This document shows positions 24,056 to 62,557 of a stretch of 64,000 bases of DNA, one piece after another. The translations under genes and the position numbers were made by a program. This DNA is from Pseudoalteromonas sp. MM1 (GTDB taxonomy: Bacteria > Pseudomonadota > Gammaproteobacteria > Enterobacterales > Alteromonadaceae): contig NZ_AP027922.1 of assembly GCF_030296835.1 (NCBI RefSeq), forward strand, positions 2,976,001 to 3,040,000, given 5' to 3'. The notes below the pieces were generated by a model that was not told where the DNA came from, searched no databases, and saw only the letters and a program-made list of their open reading frames with translations. Within the stretch, counting starts at the first letter, position 1. Each line of letters starts with the position of its first letter.

Positions 24056-26752
24056 TTACATTATCGAGTACGTTTCACACACCCTAAGCTTACTAATAAT
24101 GTGTTGTACACACGTACTTTTATCTACAACCCATAATCCATAACTTATTGGCAGTATATCAATGTTAGCGCGGCTAAATAATTTATAGGTATCGAGCTCA
24201 AAAAAATCAGCCCATGGCCCAGGAAAGCCAATTAAATTAATCGCAAGATATCGACCATTATACCGACAAAGAATATCAACATCCGTTCCGGCTATCGTGT
24301 AACCAGCCCACGTTTCTATTTTTAAACTAGTTAATTCACAGATAACACTTTGCTGAAATTTATCAATATCAGAGGTTACATTGTGAGTTGCTTCAAACTG
24401 CGTTATTGAACTTATATAACATCTTAGTAAATAATGCTCTGGCAATTGCGTTTCATCTATTGATAAAAATACACATTGTTTTTGCCTCGCTCGTGTAATA
24501 CACACATTAAATACATCTGCTTTATTAATATAAGCCGCAGCTCTTTTAGCATTATTATCTAGCGCAAAAGAGATAAGCATAATGTCTCGCTCCTCGCCTT
24601 GAAAACCGAATGGAGTGGCAGATCTCAGTTTATACTTTATTATCTCAGCTTCATTAAAGTGAGTTTCTATCTCTTTGGTAATATAATCAGCTTGGTTTCT
24701 AAAAGGCGAAACAACCCCAATGCTATGGCTGATCCCTGCGCTTTTATCATCATCAATTTGTTGCTTAATCGTGTTTATAATACTATCCGCCTCAAGATGA
24801 TTAATACCTGAACTATCTCGAGTTCCATTAACGCGTTGTACCAATAAGTTACCCGTACTTGTACAAGGTCTGTGCTGCATTATTTTTAACTTTGATTGAT
24901 AAAAATGTTCGTTACTAAAATTAATTAACTCAGGCTTGCTTCTAAAATGTTCATCTAAAAATGCCAGTTGTTTATTATCGTTTAATGCATTTAAGGTCAG
25001 ATCTAGAATAGAGTTATCACGATAGCTCATAACGCCTTTATCGCTAAAGCTCACATTATTCTTAGACATAAGCTGGGCTTCTTTGTTTTTTGCCAAAAAA
25101 GAGTAATGTTTTAACTGTTTAGTATCACCGACAATAATCGCTCTCTTTGCGCGATAAAGTGCAGGTAAACAACTACTGATGTTACATTGTGTCGCTTCGT
25201 CAATAATAACTAAGTCGAACATTTCGGTTTTTAACGGTAGAACTCTATACAAGGTATTTAAACTTACGAGCCACACCGGAAAAGCCGATAATAAAGCCTC
25301 GTATTCTATATTATCAAAAAGCTCAAACTGCCTTTTAGATGTGCGACTACGAATAGCTTGGTTAAATGCGTTTAACGATTTACGCTGAGTATCAATTAGC
25401 GCTTTAAGGTTTTTATTTTTTAACGCGCTTAAATAATTACTCGCCAGTTTTTCTCTTTTAAGTTGTTGGGTATTTATTTGCTCTAACGAAGACCACTGCT
25501 TTGCTAATTGCTTAATACCACGACGAGCAAATTTAATGTATAAATTGCTAAGCCATTCGATATTCTTATCTTCAAGATTTTTGAGTCTTTTACCTCTAAT
25601 TATGGCTCGGTGGCAAAACTGACTAAAGCGCAGTTCTAATTCATTTAATGAGGTATTTAGCTTGTTTAGTTCAGACTCAATAAGCGCGGGGTTATCTTGT
25701 TCATCCGCTAAGTACCCTGCTAATAAATCGGCAATATAATCTTTTAATTTTTTTAAAAATTCTTTTTGTCCGGCGCGTATGGATACATCGCTTAGCCCAA
25801 AGTTTTCATCAAGTTTATCGGCTATTACATCCAGTGCGGGATTATTGTTTGCTACAATAAGCACCGATTCTCCTCGCGCCATATGCTCAGCTGCAATCGC
25901 TGCAATGGTGTAGCTTTTCCCCGTGCCTGGCGGTCCAGAAACACAGCCTAAATTAATATTTGCGGCAATTGAGATAACTTTCTTTTGCGAAGCTGATAAT
26001 AGCCCAGGCAAATAATCGTACTTCAGGTTTTTATTTTTAATTGAAGGCTTCAAAGTGTCAATTAAACCGTTAATAGGCGGTGATAGTTCATCTGATTCAA
26101 TGATTTCTTCTAGCTCATGTAGAACACCTCGGCTACTATTTGAGCGCTCAGCAAAAACCAGCATAGAAGCAGGTAAAAGTGTTGGGGTTTTACTTTTTAA
26201 GGCTTTTTTTATTTCTTCAGAATCAGCAAGTTCAGGGTAGTTTAAAAGCTCAAATAGGTTCAGCGCTATCGGGCTTTTTTTTAATAATGAGGTCCAAAAA
26301 TAAGCTGACTCAATATCAGCTGTTTCATCAATACTTGTAAGCTTGTTACCCTGTGGTATTAATAGTTGAGTTAATGATTCATTTATGTCCGGTTGAGCAT
26401 CAGTAAGAGAAAAGTAATAGTCATCCTGTTCTTTTTCTATAACAGCTTCATTAAATAAGATAGGCGAAACAACCTGTTTCAACTCCCCCCTAACCTCAAG
26501 ATTACCAACTAATATAAAGCGTGTATAAAGTAGTACCCGCTCTCGCTGATAGATCTCTACACGCTTCATCATTTGCTTAGCAAAATCTGCAGGAATTGGA
26601 AGACGCGGTAAAAACCCAGAACCTAAATCATCTCGGCCTTGAAGAACAAAGCGATCCTCTTTTTTTAGTTTATTTAAATTCCATAAATTTAAATCTGCGC
26701 TATCTTCTCTATAGCAATCTCGATAATAAGAAAGTACATTTTTACTGCTCAA
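24056..26752 (-). CDS. Superfamily 1 (Upf1/DNA2-like) helicase with degenerate nuclease-like C-terminus
   Basis: The start is a TTG at 26752; no in-frame ATG lies before residue 61. An N-terminal domain of about 250 residues is unassigned. The helicase core has Walker A GPPGTGKS (residues 273-280), Walker B DLVIIDEA (513-520), motif III GDTKQL (542-547), ERDIMLISFAL and motif VI VCITRARQ (750-757). A helical insert lies at about 330-470. The C-terminal 90 residues resemble a PD-(D/E)XK/DUF559-like fold (GTDVDILCR ... LAINLIG), but the position expected to be Glu is N839, so cleavage activity looks lost. It is the first gene of a two-gene unit. The SF1 identity is firm and the biological role unknown. 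Confidence 0.85.
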   Translation of the reverse strand: MSSKNVLSYYRDCYREDSADLNLWNLNKLKKEDRFVLQGRDDLGSGFLPRLPIPADFAKQMMKRVEIYQRERVLLYTRFILVGNLEVRGELKQVVSPILFNEAVIEKEQDDYYFSLTDAQPDINESLTQLLIPQGNKLTSIDETADIESAYFWTSLLKKSPIALNLFELLNYPELADSEEIKKALKSKTPTLLPASMLVFAERSNSSRGVLHELEEIIESDELSPPINGLIDTLKPSIKNKNLKYDYLPGLLSASQKKVISIAANINLGCVSGPPGTGKSYTIAAIAAEHMARGESVLIVANNNPALDVIADKLDENFGLSDVSIRAGQKEFLKKLKDYIADLLAGYLADEQDNPALIESELNKLNTSLNELELRFSQFCHRAIIRGKRLKNLEDKNIEWLSNLYIKFARRGIKQLAKQWSSLEQINTQQLKREKLASNYLSALKNKNLKALIDTQRKSLNAFNQAIRSRTSKRQFELFDNIEYEALLSAFPVWLVSLNTLYRVLPLKTEMFDLVIIDEATQCNISSCLPALYRAKRAIIVGDTKQLKHYSFLAKNKEAQLMSKNNVSFSDKGVMSYRDNSILDLTLNALNDNKQLAFLDEHFRSKPELINFSNEHFYQSKLKIMQHRPCTSTGNLLVQRVNGTRDSSGINHLEADSIINTIKQQIDDDKSAGISHSIGVVSPFRNQADYITKEIETHFNEAEIIKYKLRSATPFGFQGEERDIMLISFALDNNAKRAAAYINKADVFNVCITRARQKQCVFLSIDETQLPEHYLLRCYISSITQFEATHNVTSDIDKFQQSVICELTSLKIETWAGYTIAGTDVDILCRYNGRYLAINLIGFPGPWADFFELDTYKLFSRANIDILPISYGLWVVDKSTCVQHIISKLRVCETYSIM

Positions 26753-27009
26753 AATTAAAACGCCTTATTAACATAGTGTATTTACTTATTATGACCTTTA
26801 AGCGCCCCTGTAATTAAAATAACAAGCTCACGCTAATAAGCATATTATACTTTTCTAAAATAAAAAATAAGGCAAATAATTACTATCAAACTATTACACC
26901 TTTAAATAAATTTAAATTAAACAGTGTGTTACATATTTATTCTCATAAAGTATAATAAAATGATAAGCTACAAAAAATGAGCGTAATGGATTACATAAAA
27001 AGAGGAAAA

Positions 27010-28020
27010 ATGAAAAGCATAATAACTTACAATGAAGATTTAAAAGAAAATAAGTGGGATGATTTTCACTTTGATTTAATCAAAATAAATACACTGCCAG
27101 TGTTTGAAAATTTAGATAGCTTTGATGCTATGGATATTTTTAGCGAGTCTATTTTTAAAGAAATACAAAATTTAACAGCTAAGAGTACGTTAAAGTTGCT
27201 CATTATTACCCCAGATACAACGTCTGAAAAAGTGTATGGTATTGCTTTTTTACAGGACAAAGAAATTTTAACAATGGAAGTAGAAGCAACGCCTCTATTT
27301 AACCAGTGGTTTAACTTAGTTAATGACGATTCCTCAACCCCAAAAATATACTCATTCACGAGTAACAGTAGTTCAGAACGACCCTTATTTGGTAATGAAA
27401 ACGACTATATATTTAAAGAAACTGGTAAATTTATTTGCAGCCAAGTTCCAAACAGCTTTGTTGCTGAAAAGTTAAGCAAAGAAAAAGCGGACTTTTTAAC
27501 GCCATTTATTGAGCTTAATGCATGCGATGACTTTAAATTGATAGAACAACATTTTAAAGCGTTGGTAAAACAAAATAGCCTCAATGTTATTGAGCCCAAA
27601 GACAACGATGCTATTTATGCTGAGTTTAAAAACGAAGCTGGCTTTGCATTTCCTGCTATACTAAAATCGTTTTTAACACTACATAATGGTGTCGAAAATA
27701 CAGCATTTATGGATGCCCAACGCATTTTAAAAGAATGGCGAGATTGGCAATCTATTTATAATGAATGGACTCAAGAAGAGCTATTCGACACCGATAATGA
27801 AAGCAATGTAAAAACCTTACCTATGTATGTTACTCCTTATTGGGTGCCATTTTTTAATCTAGGAGGTGGGAATTTTATAGCATTGGATTTTGCGCCAAAT
27901 ACCAAAGGCACACCTGGTCAAGTAATATCATTTGGCGCAGATGAACAAAGTGCCATTTACGAGGCTAATAGGTTAAGTGAGTTCCTAAAGAGCTTTATTA
28001 CTGCAGATAGCTCTGAATAA
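27010..28020 (+). CDS. SMI1/KNR4 (SUKH)-like protein
   Basis: I start it at the ATG at 27010, which has AGAGGA just upstream, over the first in-frame start at 26977. The 336-residue protein has an unassigned N-terminal half and a C-terminal half with the SUKH pattern: EFKNEAGFAFPAILKSFLTLHNG, then WVPFFNLGGGNFIALDF, then GQVISFGAD. SUKH proteins are often immunity proteins of polymorphic toxins, but many are stand-alone. It is divergent from the helicase gene, and no toxin gene is adjacent. Confidence 0.65.
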   Translation: MKSIITYNEDLKENKWDDFHFDLIKINTLPVFENLDSFDAMDIFSESIFKEIQNLTAKSTLKLLIITPDTTSEKVYGIAFLQDKEILTMEVEATPLFNQWFNLVNDDSSTPKIYSFTSNSSSERPLFGNENDYIFKETGKFICSQVPNSFVAEKLSKEKADFLTPFIELNACDDFKLIEQHFKALVKQNSLNVIEPKDNDAIYAEFKNEAGFAFPAILKSFLTLHNGVENTAFMDAQRILKEWRDWQSIYNEWTQEELFDTDNESNVKTLPMYVTPYWVPFFNLGGGNFIALDFAPNTKGTPGQVISFGADEQSAIYEANRLSEFLKSFITADSSE

Positions 28021-29008: not shown

Positions 29009-29863
29009 ATGAAAATATTTAGCTATAACTCAACAGGAAGTAAATCGTTAGTTGATTATGATCACTTTACTTTTTCAGGTGGTGAAGAGCATGTCAGATT
29101 CAACACTGCTAATTTTTCAGACTCTATAAAAATAGAGATTTTTGAACGACTAACCAACTCTTCAAAAATGGTTAGATTAATGATTGCTGTTGATGCGTTA
29201 AAAAGATTAACAAATGAAAGCACGCCTATCGAACTTGTTATTCCTTATTTTCCTTATGCACGCCAAGACCGAGTATGCGTTGAAGGAGAAGCGCTAGGCG
29301 CTGCTGTTATGGCAAATTTTATTAATAGCTTAAATTTTTCAAAGGTTACTATTTGGGATGCGCATAGCGATGTATCCCCTGCTTTAATTAATAGAGTAAC
29401 TAATGTTGAGCAAATTTCGTTACTTGGACGCTGTGAAGAGCTTAGCCAACGTTTAGCAAAAGGCGAACTAACGCTTATTTCTCCTGACGCTGGAGCAAGT
29501 AAAAAAACGATTAAAATTTCAGAAAAATTCAATGGCGTACCCGAGGTTATTCAAGCTCAAAAAGTAAGAAACTTAAAAACAGGCGAAATAATAAAAACAG
29601 AAATTATTGGTGATGTTAAAGGTAAAAACGTACTTATTGCTGATGACATTTGTGATGGCGGCAGAACGTTTATTGAACTTGCAAAGGTACTAAAAAGCAA
29701 TGGTGCTGCTGAAGTTTCTCTTTTTATAACTCACGGTATTTTTTCAAAGGGGCTTGATGTTTTTGAAGGCCTAATAGAGCGCATTTATACAACTGATTCG
29801 TTTAAACCGGCTAATGAGTTTAAAAATAGTAACACCATTAGTTTACAAATAATTGAGATGTAA
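29009..29863 (+). CDS. Ribose-phosphate pyrophosphokinase (PRPP synthetase)-like
   Basis: The 284-residue protein is about 30 residues shorter than housekeeping Prs. It keeps YFPYARQDRV, the WDAHSD block and the PRPP-binding DDICDGGRTF motif (near residues 210-220). It makes PRPP from ribose 5-phosphate and ATP. It is directly followed by nadV (10-bp spacing) and under a predicted NrtR operator, so its PRPP likely feeds nicotinamide salvage. Such paralogous prs plus nadV pairs are known in proteobacteria and phages. Confidence 0.88.
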   Translation: MKIFSYNSTGSKSLVDYDHFTFSGGEEHVRFNTANFSDSIKIEIFERLTNSSKMVRLMIAVDALKRLTNESTPIELVIPYFPYARQDRVCVEGEALGAAVMANFINSLNFSKVTIWDAHSDVSPALINRVTNVEQISLLGRCEELSQRLAKGELTLISPDAGASKKTIKISEKFNGVPEVIQAQKVRNLKTGEIIKTEIIGDVKGKNVLIADDICDGGRTFIELAKVLKSNGAAEVSLFITHGIFSKGLDVFEGLIERIYTTDSFKPANEFKNSNTISLQIIEM

Positions 29864-29873
29864 GGAAAACACC

Positions 29874-31469
29874 ATGACTATTACAGCTGCAAGTATGCAA
29901 AAAGATGTTTATAAAGAATTTCATAGCCGTGCTTATCACCCAGATGTAAGTGAAGTATATGCAAACTTTACATCAAGAAGCGGAAAGCTTAGCAACATAG
30001 AAAATAACGATAAAGTTGCGTTTGTTGGTCTTCAATACTTTATTAAAAGTTATCTTTTAGAAGAATGGAATGAGTTTTTTAAACTAGATAAAGCAACTGC
30101 CGTTGCTAACCATAAACGTATAATGAGCTCAATGCTTGGCTATACAGTTGATGTAAAATACTTAGAAGACTTACATGACTTAGGTTACTTACCATTAAAA
30201 ATTAAAGCCTTACCAGAGGGAACATTGGTACCTTACTTAGTACCACCCATAACTATTGTAAACACCAAAGCGGGTTTTCAATGGTTAACAAATATGATTG
30301 AAACCGTATTAAGCTGTGAGAACTGGCCTATACAAACCAGTACAACAACCTCTGTTGCCTACTTAAAAGTGTTTAAAGAGTTTGCACAAAAAACAGGAAT
30401 GCCTATGGAGTTTGTGCCGTTTCAAGGGCATGACTTTAGCTTTAGAGGAATGTTTGGAAAACACGCAGCAGCAATGAGTGGGTTTGGTCACTTAGCATCT
30501 GGGCTTGTAGGGACTGACACTATTCCGGCGGTCTTATTTGCAGAAAAATACTATGGTGCAAATGTTGATAAAGAACTCGTGGGCTGCTCTGTAGATGCAA
30601 CTGAACATTCGGTTACCTGTTCATGGATTATGGAAGGTGAAATAGAGTTTTTTAAGTACTTAATGAAAGAGCAATCACCAAAAGGGATTTTAAGTGTTGT
30701 ATCTGACACATGGGACTTTTGGACACTTGTTACTGACTACTTGCCTCAGCTGAAAAGCGAAATAATGGCGCGCGATGGCACCTTAGTCATACGCCCCGAC
30801 TCAGGCGATCCTGTTAAAGTATTAACAGGTTACAAAGTTTCACCAGTATCTGATTACAAAGAGTTATTTGAAACACAAAAAGAAGCTGAAGCTAACGTTA
30901 TTAATAAAGGCTATGAAGCGTATCGCTTTAATGGTCAATATTATGGATTTGAAGGTAGCAATACTATTGAGCTGATGGAATGTGAAGTTAAAGGGCTTAT
31001 AGAGTGTCTATGGGATATATTTGGCGGTACAACAACTTCAAAAGGCTATAAATTGCTCGATGACCACATTGGCGCTATTTACGGCGATGCTATTACTCTT
31101 GCACGTCAGCGCCACATACTACAACGCCTAATGGATAAAGGGTTTGCTTCAAAGGTCGTACTTGGTATTGGCTCATACAGCTACCAATACGTAACACGTG
31201 ATACACATGGCTCTGCGGTAAAAGCAACGAGTGTAGTTAAAGCAGGTGAACGTTTAGCTATTTTTAAAGACCCAAAAACTGACTCAAAGAAAAAATCGGC
31301 TAAAGGGCTCTTAAAAATAGACAGAGTAAATGGCGAACTCACTTTATTTGATGACGTAACCGAGCAAGAAGAAGCGAAAGGCCTACTAGAGGTTGTTTTT
31401 GAAGATGGTAAAATAGTTAAAGAAACTACACTAAGTGAAATTAGAGCTTTAATAGATACACAAATTTAA
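29874..31469 (+). CDS. nadV: Nicotinamide phosphoribosyltransferase
   Basis: The ATG at 29874, preceded by AAGGAAA, is preferred over an in-frame TTG. The protein has 531 residues, matching the long NAMPT/NadV type. It carries GHDFSFRGM near residue 183, the phosphate-binding RPDSGDPVKVL segment and the FGGTTTSKGYKLLDDHIGAIYGD region, all typical of the family. It converts nicotinamide and PRPP to nicotinamide mononucleotide. It forms an operon with the PRPP synthetase-like gene under NrtR control. Confidence 0.93.
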   Translation: MTITAASMQKDVYKEFHSRAYHPDVSEVYANFTSRSGKLSNIENNDKVAFVGLQYFIKSYLLEEWNEFFKLDKATAVANHKRIMSSMLGYTVDVKYLEDLHDLGYLPLKIKALPEGTLVPYLVPPITIVNTKAGFQWLTNMIETVLSCENWPIQTSTTTSVAYLKVFKEFAQKTGMPMEFVPFQGHDFSFRGMFGKHAAAMSGFGHLASGLVGTDTIPAVLFAEKYYGANVDKELVGCSVDATEHSVTCSWIMEGEIEFFKYLMKEQSPKGILSVVSDTWDFWTLVTDYLPQLKSEIMARDGTLVIRPDSGDPVKVLTGYKVSPVSDYKELFETQKEAEANVINKGYEAYRFNGQYYGFEGSNTIELMECEVKGLIECLWDIFGGTTTSKGYKLLDDHIGAIYGDAITLARQRHILQRLMDKGFASKVVLGIGSYSYQYVTRDTHGSAVKATSVVKAGERLAIFKDPKTDSKKKSAKGLLKIDRVNGELTLFDDVTEQEEAKGLLEVVFEDGKIVKETTLSEIRALIDTQI

Positions 31470-52377: not shown

Positions 52378-52414
52378 TTAAAACTTAAAGTAGAACCCAT
52401 AGAGGTCAAATTCG

Positions 52415-52563
52415 TCTTTTTTTATCAGCAAGTAATTGATCATTGAGCAATACGAATGTACTTCAATATTAAAACGAAGGCTTGCTTCAATGCAGTATAA
52501 AAAACACTTCAAACCCTCATCATTCAAAAAGGTGTTTTCACGCCCTTCTCAACGTTTCATTAC
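52415..52563 (-). pseudogene. Decayed N-terminal fragment of a RAYT (Y1 transposase) gene
   Basis: Minus-strand translation aligns with the intact RAYT at 54792-55766: residues matching VMNRG-GRENTFL, CFLYCIEASLRFNIEVHSYC. It carries an in-frame TGA after VMKR, at least one residue deletion, and loss of the catalytic HYH region (NYLLIKK where the intact copy has NHYHLLIK). It is a dead scar. Confidence 0.85.
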
Positions 52564-52581
52564 ACAGTTAAACGTAGCTGG

Positions 52582-53784
52582 CTAATCAACAAGCTCCCGT
52601 ATACCTTCATTATAGTAGTCAATGTTTTGTTTTCGATACTCATTAGGAATGTCGCCCACAATACTTTTAAACACGCGGTTAAAAGTGGCAAGAGAAGAAA
52701 AGCCACTCTCAAGTGCTATGCTTAAAATACTCCACTCTTTGGCCTGATCGTTTATTAATAACTTTTTTGCATATTCAACGCGGTATTGGTTAATAAATAA
52801 ATTAAAGTTAGCCGCTTTATAGTGATAGCGGATTGCTCGACTAACTTTGTACTCAGGCACCATTAACGCTTGTGCAAAATCTGAAATTTTGAGGTTAGCT
52901 TGTAAGTAAAGCTGCTGCTCATTGATAAGCTTTGTAATACCAACTATCAATTCAGGCTCTACATCTTGATTGCTGTTTTCATTTAGATTACTCGTGTCAT
53001 TGTTAATAGTGCCCATATCATCTTCTTGCTTAAGCGCTTGGTTATTTATCACTCTTGCTTGAAGGGCTATGACTACTTGCATCGCTAATGTAATTAAAAG
53101 TGCAGATGAAGTTATGATTATGGGGTTATACAGCTCTATTTCAGCCGCACTAAAAATAAATTTAGGAAAAATACTTGCATTAAACACAGCTAAAACCCAA
53201 GCGCTCCCAAAGATGACTGATTGCATTTTTTGTGACTGTGTTTTTTTACTATAACCTCTAAACGCCTCCCAAAAAGAAAGCGCAAGGATACTTGATGAGA
53301 GCAATATGGTGACCTCATTCACCCCTTGCTTTAAGCGCCACATTATATCACTGGTAGGTAAAGGCTGAGGATCAAGGCTCACTAAGTAGTGCCATGTTTG
53401 ATTAAACATGATCAAGCCGGCAATGGTTGCAGCAAAAGTCACATGCCTGCGGGAAATTGGCGCATGCTCACGAAATAACGTTCTTGCAATCAGCCATGAA
53501 ACATTACATGTTGCGCAAGTGAACAACCCAATTAGATATTGATACGCGCCAATACTTTGCGCACTGAGCTTTTGTGCTGCCACCATACAAAGGGAGCCAC
53601 AAAATATCACAAATAAATAATGAACCTGCTGCTTATCTTTTTTCAGCGTATTTAAAAACATTAACCCCATACAAACAAAAAGAAGAAGATAATAAGGGGA
53701 ATAATTTTGCATAATAGCGTGCTCTAAAAATGACGTTTTAACCAACAACGTGGCCTGAATTACATGGTACAAATTAACATGCAT
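52582..53784 (-). CDS. AraC-family regulator with membrane-spanning N-terminal region
   Basis: 400 residues. The N-terminal half has about seven hydrophobic segments (from PYYLLLFVCMGLMFLN), like membrane-bound AraC regulators. The C-terminal half is an AraC DNA-binding domain: LKISDFAQALMVPEYKVSRAIRYHYKAANFNLFINQYRVEYAKKLL, then IALESGFSSLATFNRVFKSIVGDIPNEYRKQ. The start is uncertain (53784 or an internal ATG at 53712). It is divergent from the DUF2306 gene, with a palindrome between them. Confidence 0.85.
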   Translation of the reverse strand: MHVNLYHVIQATLLVKTSFLEHAIMQNYSPYYLLLFVCMGLMFLNTLKKDKQQVHYLFVIFCGSLCMVAAQKLSAQSIGAYQYLIGLFTCATCNVSWLIARTLFREHAPISRRHVTFAATIAGLIMFNQTWHYLVSLDPQPLPTSDIMWRLKQGVNEVTILLSSSILALSFWEAFRGYSKKTQSQKMQSVIFGSAWVLAVFNASIFPKFIFSAAEIELYNPIIITSSALLITLAMQVVIALQARVINNQALKQEDDMGTINNDTSNLNENSNQDVEPELIVGITKLINEQQLYLQANLKISDFAQALMVPEYKVSRAIRYHYKAANFNLFINQYRVEYAKKLLINDQAKEWSILSIALESGFSSLATFNRVFKSIVGDIPNEYRKQNIDYYNEGIRELVD

Positions 53785-53856
53785 GTTGGCAAAAAAACTT
53801 TGTTAGTGAATGTGTCTATACCGCCCTAGCTAATTAAAAAAAATTATCAATATATC

Positions 53857-53885
53857 GTTGCTCAAATTCCGAATTTGAGAAGCAA
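53857..53885. promoter_or_regulatory. Near-perfect palindrome between AraC-type and DUF2306 genes
   Basis: CTCAAATTC (53861-53869) and GAATTTGAG (53871-53879) flank a single base, extended by TTG and AGCAA on the outside. A candidate operator for the adjacent AraC-type regulator. Confidence 0.45.
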
Positions 53886-53939
53886 TCACCATGAAAGTCT
53901 TTATATTTGGGCTATTGAAAATACTTTTTGGAAAAGCAC

Positions 53940-54749
53940 ATGTTAATGCAAACAATAAAAAAAACGCCCAATGAGCTACTTGAGATGAGCAAAAAAATGT
54001 GGTTCACGTGCCTGTTGATGGCACAAATCTGCTTTGTTATTTACCTCGCCTTGGGATACGGGCTGACGGGGGTCACTACGGGAATATCTGGCTGGGGTCG
54101 TCTAAATAGCACCGCCTATGTTGCCAGCGATCCCACTGGTAATTCAATGTACGCGCTGCATGTGTTACTCGCCATCGTGATGATAATTGGTGGTAGCTTA
54201 CAGCTAATACCTGCAATAAGAGCAAAGTATACTAAGTTTCACCGCTACAATGGTCGCGTGTTCGTAATGTTAGCCTGTACCATCTCTTTAGCAGGTATGT
54301 ACCTTATGATAGCCAGAGGAACCGTTGGCAACACCTCGATGCATGCGTTGACTATGCTTGGTGGTTGCGTGGTTATTTTAGCGAGTATATTAACCATACA
54401 AACAGCCAGAAAGCGGAATATCACTAAACATAAAATTTGGGCGATACGTTTATACCTTGCAGCAAACGGCGTTTTATTTTTTAGGCTGATGATTTTTGCC
54501 TGGTTTTTAATATTCGGCTCACTAGGAATTGATACTGCAACGTTTACAGGTCCAACCGTGCTAACTATTAGCGTATGTTCTTATATTGTGCCGCTACTTA
54601 TAGCTGAGTTAGTCAGGTATGCAGGTAAAACGTCTAATAGAGTAATAATAATCCTCACCGCTGCTTTAATGATGTTGATATCCATTGTATTTTTAGTCGG
54701 CTTATTTGGTGTAGTGTTTGCAAGTTGGTACCCAGCGATAGTTAGCTAA
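53940..54749 (+). CDS. DUF2306 integral membrane protein
   Basis: ATG at 53940 (or 53946) with GGA upstream; an in-frame TTG lies at 53928. The 269-residue protein has about seven transmembrane helices and the DUF2306 pattern: ALHVLLAIVMIIGGSLQLIPAIR ... KFHRYNGRVFVMLACTISLAGMYLM, and NITKHKIWAIRLYLA. Conserved His residues at helix ends may bind a cofactor such as heme. Function unknown. Its divergent AraC-type neighbour may control it. Confidence 0.85.
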   Translation: MLMQTIKKTPNELLEMSKKMWFTCLLMAQICFVIYLALGYGLTGVTTGISGWGRLNSTAYVASDPTGNSMYALHVLLAIVMIIGGSLQLIPAIRAKYTKFHRYNGRVFVMLACTISLAGMYLMIARGTVGNTSMHALTMLGGCVVILASILTIQTARKRNITKHKIWAIRLYLAANGVLFFRLMIFAWFLIFGSLGIDTATFTGPTVLTISVCSYIVPLLIAELVRYAGKTSNRVIIILTAALMMLISIVFLVGLFGVVFASWYPAIVS

Positions 54750-54757
54750 CGTACTTA

Positions 54758-54793
54758 AAGAACATAAATGGGGTCAAGAACATAAATGGGGTC
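54758..54793 (+). repeat. Two 18-bp tandem direct copies ending at the RAYT element edge
   Basis: AAGAACATAAATGGGGTC occurs at 54758-54775 and again at 54776-54793. The second copy runs into the left inverted repeat of the RAYT element. Confidence 0.8.
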
Positions 54794-55836
54794 AAATCTT
54801 GACTTCAGACATCAAACAATCTCGAAGTTTTTCCAATTGTAATTTAACCTTTTCATCTTCAACCATTAATTTATTCAACCTACCTACAGCTTTCGATATC
54901 GCCGAATAATGCTCAACATTAAAAACAGCTGCTAATGCCTGCAAATTTAACCCCGTTAAATCTTGGCATAATTTAATAGCAAACCAGCGTGGTAAATTTT
55001 TCTCTTTTCGCCCTTTTTTAACCGTTATAATCTCATTAACCTCAACATTAAAGTATTGAGCTAAGTAAGCTATAACTTCATCTGCTGAGCGATTTTTACT
55101 AACAAGCTTTCTTTCGCTATCAGGCTTGGCAATGTAGTCTTTTATATTTTCAATAAAGTCCTCACAACCTAAAACCGACAATAACTTTTTAGCACTATAA
55201 AAAGCGCTTATTTCTTTATTATTTTCATATTCAACAAACTGTTTGTACGCAGCATATTTACGCTTTTTTCCTTGAAGCGAAAATATAAAGTCTCGAACTA
55301 ACCATTTCGGTGTCGCCGCTTTTTTGATGAAGGCTGAGTAGCTAGACCATTTATAGTCAATGAGTTCATCGACTAGCGGTGTACTTGCTTCTATAGGGTT
55401 ACGATGTATATAACGGCTAACATGGAGTAAGTAATTATCAGCATCCACCAACACCGCTTTGTAGCGACCTCTAAACAGTGCACCATCTGTATTATGGGTT
55501 CGGTTAAAGTATTGAGTATAAAGGCCATTAATATGCTTCATGGCTCGGCCTAAATTTGCATCAGGGGTTTTGATTAGCAGGTGGTAATGATTGGTCATTA
55601 AACAATAAGAATGCACTTCAATATTAAAGCGAAGGCTTGCTTGCTCAATACAATATAAAAAGTACTTAAAGTCGTCATCGCTCAAAAAGGTATTTTCACG
55701 CCCTCTTCCCCGATTCATTACATGATAAAACGCATTCTCATACTCTATTCGCAGCGGCCTAGACATAGTAATTCACTCAATGAGTAGTAATCTATAAATC
55801 TAGACCTTTGAAGTCTGAAGTCAAGATTTGACCCCA
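54787..55836. mobile_element. RAYT element bounded by 24-bp perfect inverted repeats
   Basis: Left repeat 54787-54810 and right repeat 55813-55836 are perfect reverse complements (24 bp) and flank the transposase-like gene closely. The left repeat is immediately preceded by a tandem duplication of its outer end. This is the arrangement expected of a self-contained RAYT cassette or a Y1-transposase-mobilised unit. Confidence 0.8.
54792..55766 (-). CDS. REP-associated tyrosine transposase (RAYT) with C-terminal DnaA-like HTH
   Basis: The 324-residue protein has a Y1/HUH transposase domain: NAFYHVMNRGRGRENTF, HSYCLMTNHYHLLIKT with the HUH motif HYH, and LFRGRYKAVLVDADNYLLHVSRYIHRNPIEA with the conserved Tyr region. 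The C-terminal part (RSADEVIAYLAQYFNVEVNEI ... AAVFNVEHYSAISKAVGRL) resembles the DnaA C-terminal DNA-binding fold, a known RAYT variant. Its stop lies inside the left inverted repeat. RAYTs are linked to REP sequences and have single-strand cleavage activity. Confidence 0.93.
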   Translation of the reverse strand: MSRPLRIEYENAFYHVMNRGRGRENTFLSDDDFKYFLYCIEQASLRFNIEVHSYCLMTNHYHLLIKTPDANLGRAMKHINGLYTQYFNRTHNTDGALFRGRYKAVLVDADNYLLHVSRYIHRNPIEASTPLVDELIDYKWSSYSAFIKKAATPKWLVRDFIFSLQGKKRKYAAYKQFVEYENNKEISAFYSAKKLLSVLGCEDFIENIKDYIAKPDSERKLVSKNRSADEVIAYLAQYFNVEVNEIITVKKGRKEKNLPRWFAIKLCQDLTGLNLQALAAVFNVEHYSAISKAVGRLNKLMVEDEKVKLQLEKLRDCLMSEVKI

Positions 55837-55840
55837 ATGG

Positions 55841-55999
55841 TCCCCATTAGAGGAATTGCAAGAGGATCTGGACGAATGGATGATTTATTATAATAATGAC
55901 CGAACTCATCAAGGAAAAATATGCTGTGGCAGAACGCCATTAGAAACTTTAATAGATGGAAAATTGATCTGGGCTGAGAAAAATTTAGCTCAAATCTAA
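55841..55999 (+). pseudogene. 3' remnant of an integrase-core (DDE) IS transposase
   Basis: Plus-strand frame reads LEELQEDLDEWMIYYNNDRTHQG, then CCGRTPLETLIDGKLIWAEKNLAQI and stop at 55997-55999. This is the conserved C-terminal end of IS3/IS481-type transposases. Everything 5' is gone and replaced by the RAYT element's right end, so it is a truncated scar. Confidence 0.85.
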
Positions 56000-56000
56000 A

Positions 56001-56036
56001 CTGACAGTCACCGATTAAAAAACGGGTAACTGTCAG
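56001..56036. repeat. 8-bp inverted repeat, probable IS right-end remnant
   Basis: CTGACAGT (56001-56008) and ACTGTCAG (56029-56036) directly follow the transposase remnant and probably derive from the IS terminal region. Confidence 0.5.
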
Positions 56037-56058
56037 ATCAAGTCTGAGCTAGTACACA

Positions 56059-57570
56059 TCAGTTGTATCTTGAACCATTTCTTCTAGTCACTACTTGTGC
56101 TGTTTTATCAGGCACTTCTTTAATTCCTTCATCAGTAACTTCAAAGTGTATAATTTCAATTTTATTGATAGTCCCATCGTCCAACCTTTTGAGTTTTACT
56201 ATATTAAAACCTCGCCTTTCTCCCACTGCTCTTTTTGTCGAGTTAAGGTGACTAGATGGCGCCATGACACGTACTACTTCATTCGTTTGAAGCCTATGAG
56301 GGCGGTTATTTTCTTCGGATAGGTCTTTACTTTCACTTGGCTTCCCTAGCAAGGACTGTACTAATGTTAGTCGAGCATGTCCATGTCCATGCAACCACAT
56401 TTGAACTCGTCCAGCTTTGAATAACTGACTAACCCTTGACCAGTCTTCACTAAGATGATCTCCATTAGCATAGTCTTTTTCGGCAGGGCCATGATGAGAA
56501 ACAGCTATTGTGAAAAAGTTATTATCTTTTCTCAACTCATCTGATATCTGATTAGTAGTTATAGTATCAAGTGAAGGCACGTTGATATTACTGGTTGATA
56601 TTTGATCAGCTGTATTTAGATGAATAAAACGAAGACCAATATGGCTAAGCTTGTCATTCACCCAAGATAGATTCTCTGAGAGAATCCACTTAGGATCCGT
56701 TGTTAATTCGTAGGCAAACTTCCTAAAAAGTGCCATACCAAATACACTATTTCCACCATGAATATAGCTATTTTGAGTTACTTGGACAGAATTGTTTGTT
56801 TTATCAAATGAACTATCTAGACTTGGAACGGATGACATTCTAAAATCAACATCGTGATTCCCAGGAACCAACACTAAAGAGTTTAAGTTGTTTTGAAGTG
56901 ATGTAGCCTCTAAAAGTTTTCTTAACTCAACTTTGGCTATTTCATACTCTTCTTTCTTCCCGCTAAATGCTATGTCTCCACTGATGACCATTATATCAGG
57001 GTCATATAGATTTTCCTTTAGGTAGTCTCCAATTTGCTGCTCTAATAAAATTGACCAATCATCAGTTCCTGGATCTCCGTACTGTGGGTCTGAAATATGT
57101 AGCAAGGTTATTTCTTTGTTATTTGCCTTATCTAATAACTCTTTTGGTTGAATTAAAGCTCGCAATATTTCTGAAAAAGTATTGGCTGAAGATTTATTTA
57201 TCTCCCCTTTATCTACACCAATTGTAAGTAATCGCATATCAAAAACTTGAATAATTTTACTTTCTGGATGCGACCAGCGTCCTTCTTGCAGCTTTTTAGT
57301 TGTAAAGGATTCTTTGAAAGCAGTAGAAGTTAGAGCAATTGGCGCGCTCTCACCAATTATTTGTAGAGCTTTCTCGTAGGTAAGCTTCCATAGATCTAAG
57401 TTTATATCTAATAAAACTACGTCATAAGACTCTATAGCCGCGTTTACAAAGTCATCTGCCGTGAAACAATATTTTACTGAGAAATCAGGTGCGTTCAAAA
57501 ACGAATCAAACAGCTCCTTGTGCGCTTTAAGGTGATCATCGACAACAAGCACTTTTATTTGAGGTGACAT
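56059..57570 (-). CDS. Receiver domain fused to calcineurin-like metallophosphoesterase (probable effector)
   Basis: 503 residues; good ribosome site (AAGGAATATAAGT). The receiver domain (1-about 140) has D11/D12, a phosphoacceptor-like D55 (VVLLDINLD) and TST at 81-83, but no clear conserved Lys. The C-terminal domain is a metallophosphoesterase: SDPQYGD (D161, with Q163 where most members have His), SGDIAFSG (D199), PGNHDVDF (N238, H239, D240), SHHGP (H359/H360), HGHGH (394-398). It would hydrolyse a phosphodiester or nucleotide when signalled. Starts 2 bp after the 1534-residue gene. No classic DNA-binding output domain. Confidence 0.85.
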   Translation of the reverse strand: MSPQIKVLVVDDHLKAHKELFDSFLNAPDFSVKYCFTADDFVNAAIESYDVVLLDINLDLWKLTYEKALQIIGESAPIALTSTAFKESFTTKKLQEGRWSHPESKIIQVFDMRLLTIGVDKGEINKSSANTFSEILRALIQPKELLDKANNKEITLLHISDPQYGDPGTDDWSILLEQQIGDYLKENLYDPDIMVISGDIAFSGKKEEYEIAKVELRKLLEATSLQNNLNSLVLVPGNHDVDFRMSSVPSLDSSFDKTNNSVQVTQNSYIHGGNSVFGMALFRKFAYELTTDPKWILSENLSWVNDKLSHIGLRFIHLNTADQISTSNINVPSLDTITTNQISDELRKDNNFFTIAVSHHGPAEKDYANGDHLSEDWSRVSQLFKAGRVQMWLHGHGHARLTLVQSLLGKPSESKDLSEENNRPHRLQTNEVVRVMAPSSHLNSTKRAVGERRGFNIVKLKRLDDGTINKIEIIHFEVTDEGIKEVPDKTAQVVTRRNGSRYN

Positions 57571-57572
57571 AC

Positions 57573-60500
57573 TTATATTCCTTCTAATCCGTGTACTAAT
57601 CTTAATTTGATAATTACATTAAAACATTTGCTATCACATTCTATAAATGCTTCACCGCCTATATCCCTTATTGTGCTTAATGTTCGCTGAAACTTTGACT
57701 TATCCGACGTCGCAGATTCTACATCACTCACCGCATTTACAACACTAATCTGGTATGTGCCGTCTTCTGGTATGATTTTATGCTCACAAAGAAAATGAAC
57801 TTCATCCAATTTGGGATCAGATAACTCAAAGTCATCTTTATTGAGATATTCATTTACGCAAAGAAGCTTACCTCGCGCATGCTTAGTGATATTTCCAAAA
57901 ATGGCTTTAAGAATAAATAGAACGTTTACATCGTAATAACAATAAAGCTCTTGATATTCATTAGATATGCACCACTTATCAACTTGCGTTAAGTTGGATT
58001 TATTAATCGCCTGTTGAAACTTTATCTCTTGCCCAAAGCTACCTTTCATATCAGAAAAAGTTTGTTTGAAATAATCTCGAGTAGTATTTAATAGTCCTTT
58101 TTCAAAAAGCATTTTAGAATCAAGTGGTATTTTCACGAAGCAAACTTTGTGGAGTTCAAATAATTTAGTTTGTAACTCACCTAAAAAACACACTAGCTCA
58201 CCAATTTTCGGCCTTTGACCAAATGAGCGTGACTTCAATACTTTACTTTGAAGATGGTGTAATTGTGTACACTTAATAAGTAGTTTTTCAGCTTCTTTAC
58301 TTATCTCAATATACTTTTCTCTATCAATAACCAGCGACTCAATTATTCTTTCCCTCAGGAAGCAATCTAAAAAACTCAAAGATATATCTAACTCGTCGAT
58401 TAAATTTTTGTAAGTGACAGGTTGATTTACTATTTGAGCTATAATTGATGTATGGTGCTTGCCTCTTTCGTCCATTGATTCATTATGAAATCTCCAAAGC
58501 CAACTCATAAGGTTTTCAGGGCGATAGAGAGAACTTACAGCACGATTCAACTCATTAGCATAACTCCACTCACTTGGGTTAAAGCCGAGCCTGTTAGCAT
58601 AAGCGAGTAAAATTTTTAAGTCTCTTGTTGCCCAGCTAAATATCTGTCCGTTATTAATAGTTTTGAGCCACTGTGATAAAACTTCAAACAACTCATCTTT
58701 TGAAAGAAGTAATAGGCATAAGACAGATAGTGATGTGTATTCATCCTCTCGATTTAGACTGTGGCAACTTTCCAAAAGAGCTACAGCATATTTTATTGAA
58801 GTGTAACTCTCGAATTCACCATAAAAATAAAATAATTGACTGGTTAAAAGCTGAATCTTTACCTTATCTGTTAGTGTTTCCTCAGAAATGACTTTCAGGG
58901 CTAGATCTTCTCTTCCTGTTATAGAATGAAGCTCTGTTATCCAACTAATTAAGCCTAAGGTATTAGTAATTTTTATAGAGTTGTTTTCTGGACACTTTCC
59001 CAACTGTTCACCTGTTACAGGGTCTATGGAAAACCTTTGTATATTTTCTGTTAACTCAACGAAAAGAGGCTCAATTTCTGCATCTCCCCACTCCTTTTGT
59101 ATATCCTTAACAGACCAGCTAGAAAGCCAATCCTCAACTCTTGCAACAAACTCAGGTACAGAAATATAATTTTTAATCCTCTCAGCAACCGCAAGTACTT
59201 TGCAGAAAGAGCATGAATCTTTTTGACCTAGTATTGGTATGTCAAGTCGAGTAAAGGTCGTTGATTTTTTCAAATTTCTTGATTGTGAAAGTCTACTTCT
59301 GTTTACTAGCCAAAATGGGAGAATCCTATTGATTCCAACACCTCGCAGTGCATATTTAATATTGTTATATGTCCTTGAGGTTATGATTGCATCATCAAAT
59401 ATAACAGCGGTTATCTTTGAGCTATCTAAGGTATCATGTAAACTAATGAACCTCTCATGAGTAATTCCAGAAAGTTGAAATGCTGAATTATTTATGTTCT
59501 TTTTTGTTTTCACTACAGGGAAAATGAATTTTTGCAAATGCGCAACAAGCTCTAACGAATCAATTAAATTAAGCACGTAATTAATCATATATTGAGTATT
59601 AGAATGTTGCGGATATACCAAGATTGGGGAATTACCAACCGGTATTTTAATTAAATGATCGTTAAAACCTTCACTCTCCTTGCCTTTTCTAAAAACAGAT
59701 TTCCCATCCTCATTGAGATCTCGTAAAGTTAATTTAAAAAGCTTAAATATCGTATAACAGAAGTATGTAGCGAGATTGCTGTCATGATTAAAACCTATGT
59801 GATCTGAACCAAAGTCGAATGACTTTATTAAATTTAATCCAATAAAGTCATGGTTGCTTCCATATTTCCAGTGCCCCAGTTTAGCAATCGGTCTTGCATA
59901 ATTCTGCAGTTCCAAATATTGCTTAGCTGAATTCTGAACATATACATTCTCACCATCTTCCGTATATCTTGGGACTATAAAAGATTTCCAACCATGTCTT
60001 GCGATATGCGGCGTATTTCCTATTCTATAGAAAGAAACGTTTTCGTCTTGTGATGTTACACTCCACTCCCATGTGAACAAATGAGGTTTATTTTGTCCAC
60101 TAGAGGGATGAATAAAGAAATAAATAGCTTCATCACCTTTTGATTTGCTTTTTATCTTCGCTGTTTTACCAGAGACTAACACACTACCTAGATTTATCTT
60201 TATTGATTTATCTTGGCTATTAAATGAATCTTCATTACTTACATTTAAATCAAGTGACTCGACAAGGCTATCCATGGGGATGAATGTAATATTTTTTTTA
60301 AACCCATAAGCGAATCTCATTAATGACGCTCGCAAAACTAAATCACATTCTTTCTTACTAAAAACATCTGAGAAATTAAGAAAGCCAACAATAGTTTTGA
60401 ATTCTGACCATTTAATCTTATCGTTAATCATTAAACAATCATTAGGATGAGAGTTAACATATTCATTTAAAAATATGGAATCTATTATTCTCAACCTTCT

Positions 60501-62177
60501 AAGGTAATCATTTATTTCAATATCTTTTTTTGCGTTTGTGAAAATTCCGTCGGTATCAGCACTAAAAGAAATAGTATGTAAGGAGTTGGTTACAAGTGTT
60601 ATTTGTGTAACAGAGGACTTAATTTTAAGTTGATTAACAGCTTCTTGATAAAATATATGTTCGTGTGTAGCAATATCTGAAATTACAATTTCCTTTGTGC
60701 TTTTTGGAAGAATAGATATTGCTGACTTTACTAACTTTATAATCGAACTTCTATCTAAACTACTAGATAGAAGCAGGTAAGATTTAACTGCGTTTTCTAA
60801 AATACTCTCTCTTTTAAAAGTGGTTCTGTAATCTAAGTAACTATAAATATCTTTAGTAATTTTAGAATGTTCATCTTGATAAACAGAGTTTATATTTACA
60901 TTTGCGGCTAGAGCACTCCAATTTTTATTAAGCTCGTTGATGAATTGATTTTTGTCAGTCCATGTATATCTATAATGAACCGCATACCCAAGGGCTCTTG
61001 CATCGTTTTCGTTTATAAAAACATTTTGCTCAGCTGTTTTAGTTTTCCAAGCTGGGCTATTTAGAGGTAGATAAGAACCCCACCATTCCCCACGATCAAT
61101 AACCCTAACAAAATCACGATTGTTTGAAGCTAATTGGGCTATTAAATTCATCCCACCGTTTTTGTTCTTCCTTATAACTTTCCTACTTGCACCATCATGG
61201 AATGTATCATACATCACACTATTTAAAGTCTTTCTTTCTTTTCCATAACACAAAGAGTTTACAACTCCCTGTCCATTATCCAAAACAAACAGCTCAAAAA
61301 ACCCTGGGTTGTCTAATATGATTTTCTTACAAAGTTTTGGAAGAGGAGCGTTTCCCTCAAGATCTTCCCTTTCAGCCTCTCTTTCAATTCTTTCTCTACT
61401 TTCAGTATCGCTACCAACTAGACCATTTCTGTATCTAATATAAAAGGAAACTAAACCATTATTAGGAATACTACTATCATTTTCGGAATTGGGCAGAGAA
61501 AACCCGTGCTCAATAGAGTTGTGTAAACTCTCTCTTAATGCTGTCCTCAACTTATAAGTGACCATTGGTTGGAATTCAGAAGGAACTTCTGAATGTATGG
61601 CTCTCGATAGAATGTTTGATACGAATCTATCAATTATTGCGTCGATATTTTCCAAGACGTTTTCATGAACTTCAGTACCTAATGATTCATATTTTATTGG
61701 TTTAATTAAATGTGTATAAGGTTTGAATTTATATGAAGTTGTATAAAGCACTTTTTTTATATTTTGAATATATTCTTCTATGCTTACTTTTCTATTCTTT
61801 ACAGTCAAAAAAAGCTCACCATCAGTCGCTTTTTCACAAGTTTCAATAAAAAACTCTAAAATTCCCTCACTCACAAGGTAATTACCAAAAGAGTTGATAC
61901 CATAAGATTGACTCTTTGATAAATCAGGCAAACTCAGTTCAATTGAACATTTGTTATCAATAAGTTTAAAAAGCAAATGATTTAAAGAAAGAATTGGTAA
62001 AGGATCAATGTACTCTACCCCTACAAAGCTTATACTCCCATACCCTAACTCTTTAAACTGTTCAAATATGCTAGAAAGTTGATAAGCTCCATCTCTCCAA
62101 TCTCTATCAAACACCTCTCTCTGAATTTGTGCACGATCCCTTTTCCCTGTTTTTTCATTTCTTTCTAAAACGAACAC
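57573..62177 (-). CDS. 1534-residue STAS-like/GHKL ATPase/PRTase-like multidomain sensor protein
   Basis: Starts at a GTG at 62177 (AGGG 7 bp before). Visible parts: STAS-like N-terminus (residues about 30-85, ISFVGVEYIDPLPILSL); GHKL ATPase with N-box ESLHNSIEHG (216-225), G1 box LDNGQGV (299-305) and GGMNLIAQLA (341-350); an unassigned middle (about 400-910); a phosphoribosyltransferase-like loop ITAVIFDDAIITSRT (922-936) and CSFC (989-992); helical repeats (about 1080-1350); and a second, decayed GHKL-like end (NITKHARG 1429-1436, STIRDIGGEAF 1501-1511). No phosphoacceptor His domain is visible. Highly A/T-rich. I do not know a described family with this full layout. Confidence 0.8.
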   Translation of the reverse strand: MFVLERNEKTGKRDRAQIQREVFDRDWRDGAYQLSSIFEQFKELGYGSISFVGVEYIDPLPILSLNHLLFKLIDNKCSIELSLPDLSKSQSYGINSFGNYLVSEGILEFFIETCEKATDGELFLTVKNRKVSIEEYIQNIKKVLYTTSYKFKPYTHLIKPIKYESLGTEVHENVLENIDAIIDRFVSNILSRAIHSEVPSEFQPMVTYKLRTALRESLHNSIEHGFSLPNSENDSSIPNNGLVSFYIRYRNGLVGSDTESRERIEREAEREDLEGNAPLPKLCKKIILDNPGFFELFVLDNGQGVVNSLCYGKERKTLNSVMYDTFHDGASRKVIRKNKNGGMNLIAQLASNNRDFVRVIDRGEWWGSYLPLNSPAWKTKTAEQNVFINENDARALGYAVHYRYTWTDKNQFINELNKNWSALAANVNINSVYQDEHSKITKDIYSYLDYRTTFKRESILENAVKSYLLLSSSLDRSSIIKLVKSAISILPKSTKEIVISDIATHEHIFYQEAVNQLKIKSSVTQITLVTNSLHTISFSADTDGIFTNAKKDIEINDYLRRLRIIDSIFLNEYVNSHPNDCLMINDKIKWSEFKTIVGFLNFSDVFSKKECDLVLRASLMRFAYGFKKNITFIPMDSLVESLDLNVSNEDSFNSQDKSIKINLGSVLVSGKTAKIKSKSKGDEAIYFFIHPSSGQNKPHLFTWEWSVTSQDENVSFYRIGNTPHIARHGWKSFIVPRYTEDGENVYVQNSAKQYLELQNYARPIAKLGHWKYGSNHDFIGLNLIKSFDFGSDHIGFNHDSNLATYFCYTIFKLFKLTLRDLNEDGKSVFRKGKESEGFNDHLIKIPVGNSPILVYPQHSNTQYMINYVLNLIDSLELVAHLQKFIFPVVKTKKNINNSAFQLSGITHERFISLHDTLDSSKITAVIFDDAIITSRTYNNIKYALRGVGINRILPFWLVNRSRLSQSRNLKKSTTFTRLDIPILGQKDSCSFCKVLAVAERIKNYISVPEFVARVEDWLSSWSVKDIQKEWGDAEIEPLFVELTENIQRFSIDPVTGEQLGKCPENNSIKITNTLGLISWITELHSITGREDLALKVISEETLTDKVKIQLLTSQLFYFYGEFESYTSIKYAVALLESCHSLNREDEYTSLSVLCLLLLSKDELFEVLSQWLKTINNGQIFSWATRDLKILLAYANRLGFNPSEWSYANELNRAVSSLYRPENLMSWLWRFHNESMDERGKHHTSIIAQIVNQPVTYKNLIDELDISLSFLDCFLRERIIESLVIDREKYIEISKEAEKLLIKCTQLHHLQSKVLKSRSFGQRPKIGELVCFLGELQTKLFELHKVCFVKIPLDSKMLFEKGLLNTTRDYFKQTFSDMKGSFGQEIKFQQAINKSNLTQVDKWCISNEYQELYCYYDVNVLFILKAIFGNITKHARGKLLCVNEYLNKDDFELSDPKLDEVHFLCEHKIIPEDGTYQISVVNAVSDVESATSDKSKFQRTLSTIRDIGGEAFIECDSKCFNVIIKLRLVHGLEGI

Positions 62178-62557
62178 ATTCTTTCCCTGTTAACTTTACG
62201 TTAAATCTAATTTTTTCCAGTCTATCAACACTCTTGATCTGATCCAATAGTTTTAGACATGTCTTACTTTTTAACTTTACTCTAACAAACTTGCGCGAAA
62301 AAAATTTTACGCCTAGGGTATCGGGGTTAGCAGTAGTAATGTACGGGACTCTAACTTAAAACTTATAGCTTAAAGCTCATTTTTATTCTGACAGCTGAAA
62401 GCTGATGGCACCTTTACTCTTCCCTTTGCAACTAGCTAACTTTCTTCAAAACACAAAAAAGCCGTTGCATTGCTGCAACGGCTTTTTAAATTTTGATAAA
62501 TTCCCAAACTTTAATGGGATTTACTACCCATTAAAGTTCAAATATTAGTCTCTGCTC
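62178..62557. other. Intergenic region between the sensor gene and gcvP
   Basis: About 380 bp. Contains the promoter side of the sensor gene, a 10-bp palindrome AGACATGTCT near 62253-62262, repetitive AGCT-rich sequence around 62360-62410 and the gcvP terminator. No gene seen. Confidence 0.5.
62455..62487 (-). terminator. Strong terminator after gcvP
   Basis: GCCGTTGCA (62461-62469) pairs with TGCAACGGC (62474-62482), flanked by A6 and T5. On the minus strand it follows the gcvP stop by about 70 bp. Confidence 0.9.

Follow-up and report, generated by a model that had tools for sequence, protein, structure and literature searches.

We examined a 64,000-nucleotide stretch of Pseudoalteromonas sp. 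MM1 (NZ_AP027922.1, positions 2,976,001 to 3,040,000; hereafter, the window), which carries two adjacent genes that form one conserved unit, inherited together across very different bacteria. The first encodes a giant protein in which a GHKL ATPase domain with its full set of motifs is followed by a phosphoribosyltransferase (PRTase) core and, at the C terminus, by a domain of kinase type; in its partner, the product of the second, a receiver is joined to a metallophosphoesterase. The unit is probably an undescribed switch-and-enzyme system and perhaps an antiviral one, and we give about an even chance to the reading that it is a sensor-effector of the defence type whose phosphoesterase is released when the giant acts on the receiver. 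The original prediction had placed the two genes 2 bp apart, as they indeed are, with the giant first:

57573 to 62177, minus strand: giant gene, 1534 amino acids, GTG start
56059 to 57570, minus strand: partner gene, 503 amino acids, receiver fused to a calcineurin-like metallophosphoesterase

A contig scan with the partner family listed 80 of 338 confirmed relatives. Among those listed, at least eight loci (L001 to L008) score at least 216 bits against the partner profile, and the others score no more than 88 bits and match the phosphoesterase part. Whole-genome searches added G325 and G281 with the partner as query, and G517, G643, and G503 (identical to L007) with the giant. Both genes occur in the same order and on the same strand at 12 of 12 other distinct loci (at least 12 exist), with the giant, in places truncated by a contig end, directly preceding the partner; only short pieces of it, scoring 35 and 30 bits, are present at L001 and L008. 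At 10 of these loci the two genes are separated by −8 to +19 bp. At L001 and L008 the partner has no clear start, the first possible one giving an overlap with the giant of 47 and 67 bases, and the spacing at L001 was left uncounted because that locus is listed with a match start and no start codon. Reading frames are split in the giant at L109 and in both genes at L112, through either assembly error or decay.

The pair spans Gamma-, Beta-, and Zetaproteobacteria, Desulfobacterota, Nitrospirota, and Chloroflexota, with named sources that include Methylococcaceae, Betaproteobacteria, Steroidobacter, Zetaproteobacteria, Desulfobacteraceae, Thermodesulfovibrionales, Nitrospirae, and Herpetosiphon; a relative of the partner is also named from Clostridium estertheticum. 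Distances among giants and among partners correlate at r = 0.992 over 11 pairs, a value reached in 0 of 5000 permutations. This test omits P0003, P0087, L001, L007, and L008, which offer no complete pair, and counts P0002 and P0005 as one pair because both lie on a 21,662-base contig. Adjacent sensor-kinase-like and receiver genes are thus kept together here as they are in two-component systems. The original prediction could have been overturned by a lack of conserved co-occurrence, and that objection fails because all 12 loci keep the pair and the two genes diverge in step.

Read from its N terminus, the giant runs from a STAS domain through a GHKL ATPase, an intervening region, the PRTase core, and a CxxC/helical region to a degenerate histidine-kinase CA domain. 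The last of these had been missed by the original prediction, which had otherwise read the domains of both proteins correctly (STAS, GHKL, PRTase-like core, receiver, and phosphoesterase). The parts of the giant are as follows:

61785 to 62177, minus strand: STAS-like domain, giant residues 1-131
60954 to 61739, minus strand: first GHKL ATPase domain, SpoIIAB-like, giant residues 147-408
59148 to 59660, minus strand: PRTase core, giant residues 840-1010, from a profile of the loop that binds phosphoribosyl pyrophosphate (PRPP)
58452 to 58454, minus strand: H1242, a putative phospho-acceptor His, present in all 14 rows that have a letter at this position
57576 to 58334, minus strand: two long helices and a histidine-kinase CA-like domain, giant residues 1282-1534

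Fold comparison identified the N-terminal folds as RsbV-like and SpoIIAB-like. The STAS fold has a VIA-align Z of 8.8, barely over the tool's stated typical best of 7-8, and the first GHKL domain combines the fold with all of the N, G1, and G2 motifs (E216, N220, D300, G304, and G342 are invariant among rows having a letter there). This pair of folds is what would be expected if the unit served non-defence stress or envelope signalling by partner switching, with the STAS-GHKL part sensing stress like RsbV/RsbW or SpoIIAA/SpoIIAB and the receiver-phosphoesterase tuning a nucleotide second messenger; several copies also sit among genes that are ordinary by eye. However, giant residues 58-61 read DPLP, so that the alignment places no Ser at the SpoIIAA phospho-Ser position, the unit includes no sigma factor gene, and both its presence in 1 of 108 genomes of the genus and its location in a variable interval (see below) are unlike core stress regulators. 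Further, the unit differs from RsbV/RsbW and SpoIIAA/SpoIIAB in fusing the modules in one chain of about 1500 amino acids that has a receiver protein as its partner. Partner switching therefore seems to us a somewhat unlikely account.

The PRTase core rests on a match to the PRPP-binding loop of the type I family PF00156, with its strand and helix, that covers 41 columns and scores 39.9, whereas none of 60 shuffles exceeds 17.0; the Pfam cut-off is not reached (14.5 against 26.3 bits for the best member of the giant family, and no match for the window protein). Its loop-like sequence, FDDAIITSRT, occupies residues 927-936, where D928 is invariant (13/13), D929 is absent from one family member (P0087), and the Gly of the PRPP loop is Ser in this clade. 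The Cys residues of the CxxC motif, C989 and C992, are also kept in 13 of 13. Just before the core, at residues 768-782, lies the motif GHW-Y---HD----N (G768, H769, H776, D777, and N782 invariant in 12 of 12), which was matched to no known site. The model is poor from residue 690 to about 980, with a predicted local distance difference test score (pLDDT) mostly below 60, and therefore no fold was assigned there. Two other candidates did not survive. Residues 440-700 (GSVLVSG loop) were considered as a second, degenerate PRTase and dropped because their profile probabilities were only 0.3% against PRTases and 0.4% against the real core, and a strict PRPP-loop pattern, which fit only 2 of 18 giant-family rows (some being fragments without that region), was too strict.

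The two GHKL-type domains of the giant show no mutual profile match (2.5%). More broadly, the giant has no match at E ≤ 1 in Pfam, NCBIfam, or PADLOC; its family profile found only chance-level matches among sequences of solved structures (best E 1.2), and Foldseek of its N-terminal half returned nothing at E ≤ 0.001. Given that no curated model matches it and that single relatives match PRTase and GHKL models only below threshold, it might be argued that the two genes are chance neighbours whose domains were over-read from weak matches. Yet the GHKL fold, the CA fold, and the PRTase profile all score above controls or background, and the retention of the pair over several phyla with matched divergence already contradicts this idea, which we find scarcely credible.

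Two domains make up the partner:

57226 to 57567, minus strand: receiver-like domain, partner residues about 2-115
56374 to 57108, minus strand: metallophosphoesterase core, partner residues 155-399

In an alignment that took 37 of 83 matches, the window protein included, Metallophos is matched in 36 and the receiver in 31 at E ≤ 1. The receiver match of the window partner is below the Pfam threshold (17.4 bits), and its D11, D12, D55, and S82 are invariant in 37 of 37. The phosphoesterase matches PF00149 at 46 bits against a cut-off of 21.5 and carries the motifs DxQ (D161, Q163), GD (198-199), GNHD (237-240), H359, and GHGH (395-398). Its nearest NCBIfam models are subunit 1 of DS-8 and of DS-9, which belong to the DefensePredictor systems and contain a metallophosphatase domain (PMC13092281); the scores, 63.6 and 63.2 bits, lie far under the equivalog cut-offs (790 and 420 bits). 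The unit departs from both systems in its N-terminal receiver, its giant kinase-like partner, and its DxQ motif, and no NACHT (DS-8) or HAD gene (DS-9) was seen. For DS-8 and DS-9, PMC13092281 reports that mutation of phosphoesterase residues abolished phage defence, and calcineurin-type phosphoesterases appear as predicted effectors of other conflict systems in PMC7159879.

Other known systems resemble the unit in one part or another. Type III retrons typically use PRTase effectors (PMC12548924), so that this domain is common to both and stands there in a defence context; the likeness is one of domain, and the unit has no reverse transcriptase gene and buries its PRTase within the giant. HATPase and REC are among the domains that PMC13092281 lists, in the legend of its Fig. 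6F, for predicted, untested defence systems, and the unit may overlap with these. A third likeness is to the systems in which an enzyme rides on a receiver. Detocs is a two-component-like defence system whose receiver is fused to a nucleoside phosphorylase. The original prediction had likened the unit to Detocs, whose domains are tabulated in PMC10952713, and the comparison holds as logic, in that both have a sensor-kinase-like protein with an enzyme-carrying receiver. The likeness goes no further, however: the unit has two genes, a phosphoesterase where Detocs has a nucleoside phosphorylase (no PNP match was found in the partner at E ≤ 1), and a giant with STAS, PRTase, and two GHKL-type domains. 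Receiver-plus-enzyme logic is thus already known from Detocs, and the unit's domain combination, which was not found in the literature searched (open-licence PMC papers only), appears new.

In the mechanism that we favour, the giant would be inactive at rest and would sense a cue, probably phage infection, through its STAS/GHKL/PRTase part, and the PRTase would either read PRPP or a nucleotide or make a nucleotide signal. The giant would then either pass a phosphoryl group to D55 of the receiver, perhaps by way of the putative phospho-acceptor H1242, or contact the receiver directly. The phosphoesterase thus freed would cut nucleic acid or a nucleotide, stopping the cell or the phage. We infer both the mechanism and a role in defence, the latter from circumstantial support: the sporadic distribution of the unit, its variable interval with AbiD, nearby Wadjet genes, and a phosphoesterase nearest to those of DS-8 and DS-9.

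The distribution is sparse at every level. Counting its own genome, the unit occurs at a real score in 1 of 108 genomes of the genus, where 37 others match a part only (E 2.8e-9 or weaker), in 3 of 369 genomes of the class (E ≤ 1e-20), and in 4 of 398 of the phylum (E ≤ 1e-8). Among the E. coli genomes, no near DNA match was found; viral contigs gave eight loci with phosphoesterase-domain relatives only (all at most 68 bits against the partner profile), and one plasmid matches 24% of the partner. One relative in the genus (L091, G060:C264) carries a 1017-amino acid open reading frame (ORF) that matches only the phosphoesterase part and is perhaps DS-8-like by length.

In the window, the unit lies in an interval that follows gcvP:

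52412 to 62450, strand not assigned: variable chromosomal interval containing the two-gene unit
62456 to 62487, minus strand: terminator-like hairpin between gcvP and the unit, weak on its own (2 sites found against 3.1 expected in shuffles)

We read this interval in six relatives (L144 to L149), scanning chosen neighbours with PADLOC: genes of four, one gene of a fifth, and none of the sixth. Each of the six carries different cargo. In five, the counterpart of window 51.9-52.4 kb follows the gcvP stretch 5.0-8.3 kb later, with other genes between; in L147 the far end was not reached. The cargo includes AbiD or candidate defence genes in two of the six. L149 has AbiD (264 bits) and PDC-M18A/B, and L148 (1521-6548) has a WYL regulator, a TerB-like gene, and a PDC-M40B-like gene in a row, which is another candidate defence module; the cargo of L144 is, by eye, an efflux operon. 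Around distant copies of the unit, JetD and part of JetC (Wadjet genes) lie about 3 kb upstream in Steroidobacter (L006), a phage-type integrase is beside the pair at L109, a PIN-domain gene and a zeta toxin are near it at L108 and L002, respectively, and a PDC-S02 gene is 5 kb off at L005.

Several observations weigh against a defensive sensor-effector. The giant is unmatched in 72,556 plasmid and 50,697 phage records. Neighbours at L001, L003, L004, and L007 are mostly ordinary by eye, with no defence match among the few scanned at L001 and L003, and three scanned genes of L145 and L146 and one of L147 had no PADLOC match. In the giant, single-sequence PRTase and GHKL matches fall below Pfam cut-offs, and the C-terminal CA domain, whose fold is matched and whose N-box N1429 is kept, differs from that of CheA and other histidine kinases in having an invariant Asn (N1481) for the G1 Asp and no G2 box that we could see. 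In the partner receiver, residues 103-112, where strand 5 draws to its end, contain no conserved Lys (position judged from the alignment), and the full five-residue active-site set of two-component receivers (DD, D, T/S, K) is not shown. Because that Lys is absent it is a pseudo-receiver as defined in PMC12632262, yet it keeps its Asp. These features of receiver and CA domain complicate the proposed phosphotransfer, and direct protein contact in its place is possible. Finally, the first metal motif is DxQ for DxH in all 37 partners, the other metal motifs being kept, whereas of 84 phosphoesterase-only ORFs, 78 have the His, two have Gln, and four do not match the motif. Any of these altered parts could be weak or dead. 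Of the overall signalling and defence interpretation first proposed, the conserved unit and its domains therefore stand, and the defensive role and the phosphotransfer are on less firm ground.

The DxQ change might lower phosphoesterase activity, and this would suit a reversal of roles, with the PRTase of the giant as the enzyme that is toxic or makes a signal and the receiver-phosphoesterase as the regulator that clears this signal or holds the giant inactive. The constancy of D928 and of the first GHKL motifs agrees with such an arrangement, as does the use of PRTases as effectors in retrons (PMC12548924). But P0087 has lost D929, this clade carries Ser in place of the PRPP-loop Gly, and a related phosphoesterase was required for defence in DS-8 and DS-9 (PMC13092281). 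We consider the reversal quite unlikely and take the phosphoesterase as the more probable effector.

Other features of the window can be noted for completeness. Beside the unit, an open RAYT-type Y1 transposase ORF (54792-55766), with a DnaA_C-like tail just below cut-off, has a close copy in the same interval of L145 (4127-5101), and a transposase 3' remnant of at least 54 codons by eye (55835-55996) has no second copy elsewhere in the genome. Farther away, an 898-amino acid superfamily-1 type helicase (24056-26752) matches PADLOC MkoC (176 bits), PDC-S37, and MkoA and stands beside a SUKH protein that matches PDC-M40A (26977-28020), a second possible defence locus. At 29009-31469, a PRPP-synthetase-like gene adjoins a nicotinate/nicotinamide phosphoribosyltransferase gene, a pairing suggestive of NAD salvage.

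The analysis provides a domain map and a partner for a giant protein that drew no label from the scanned libraries. If the unit is defensive, two-component-style signalling would feed a phosphoesterase of the DS-8/DS-9 kind, with a PRTase added on the sensor side. A bolder and distinctly unlikely version would make it a new class of immune signalling, in which a PRTase within a two-GHKL sensor reads or makes a nucleotide signal that passes through a Lys-less receiver to a DxQ phosphoesterase; such a class would combine a second-messenger pathway with a two-component one within just two genes. In either case, the invariant changes in the receiver and the metal site provide testable claims about how the effector is switched.

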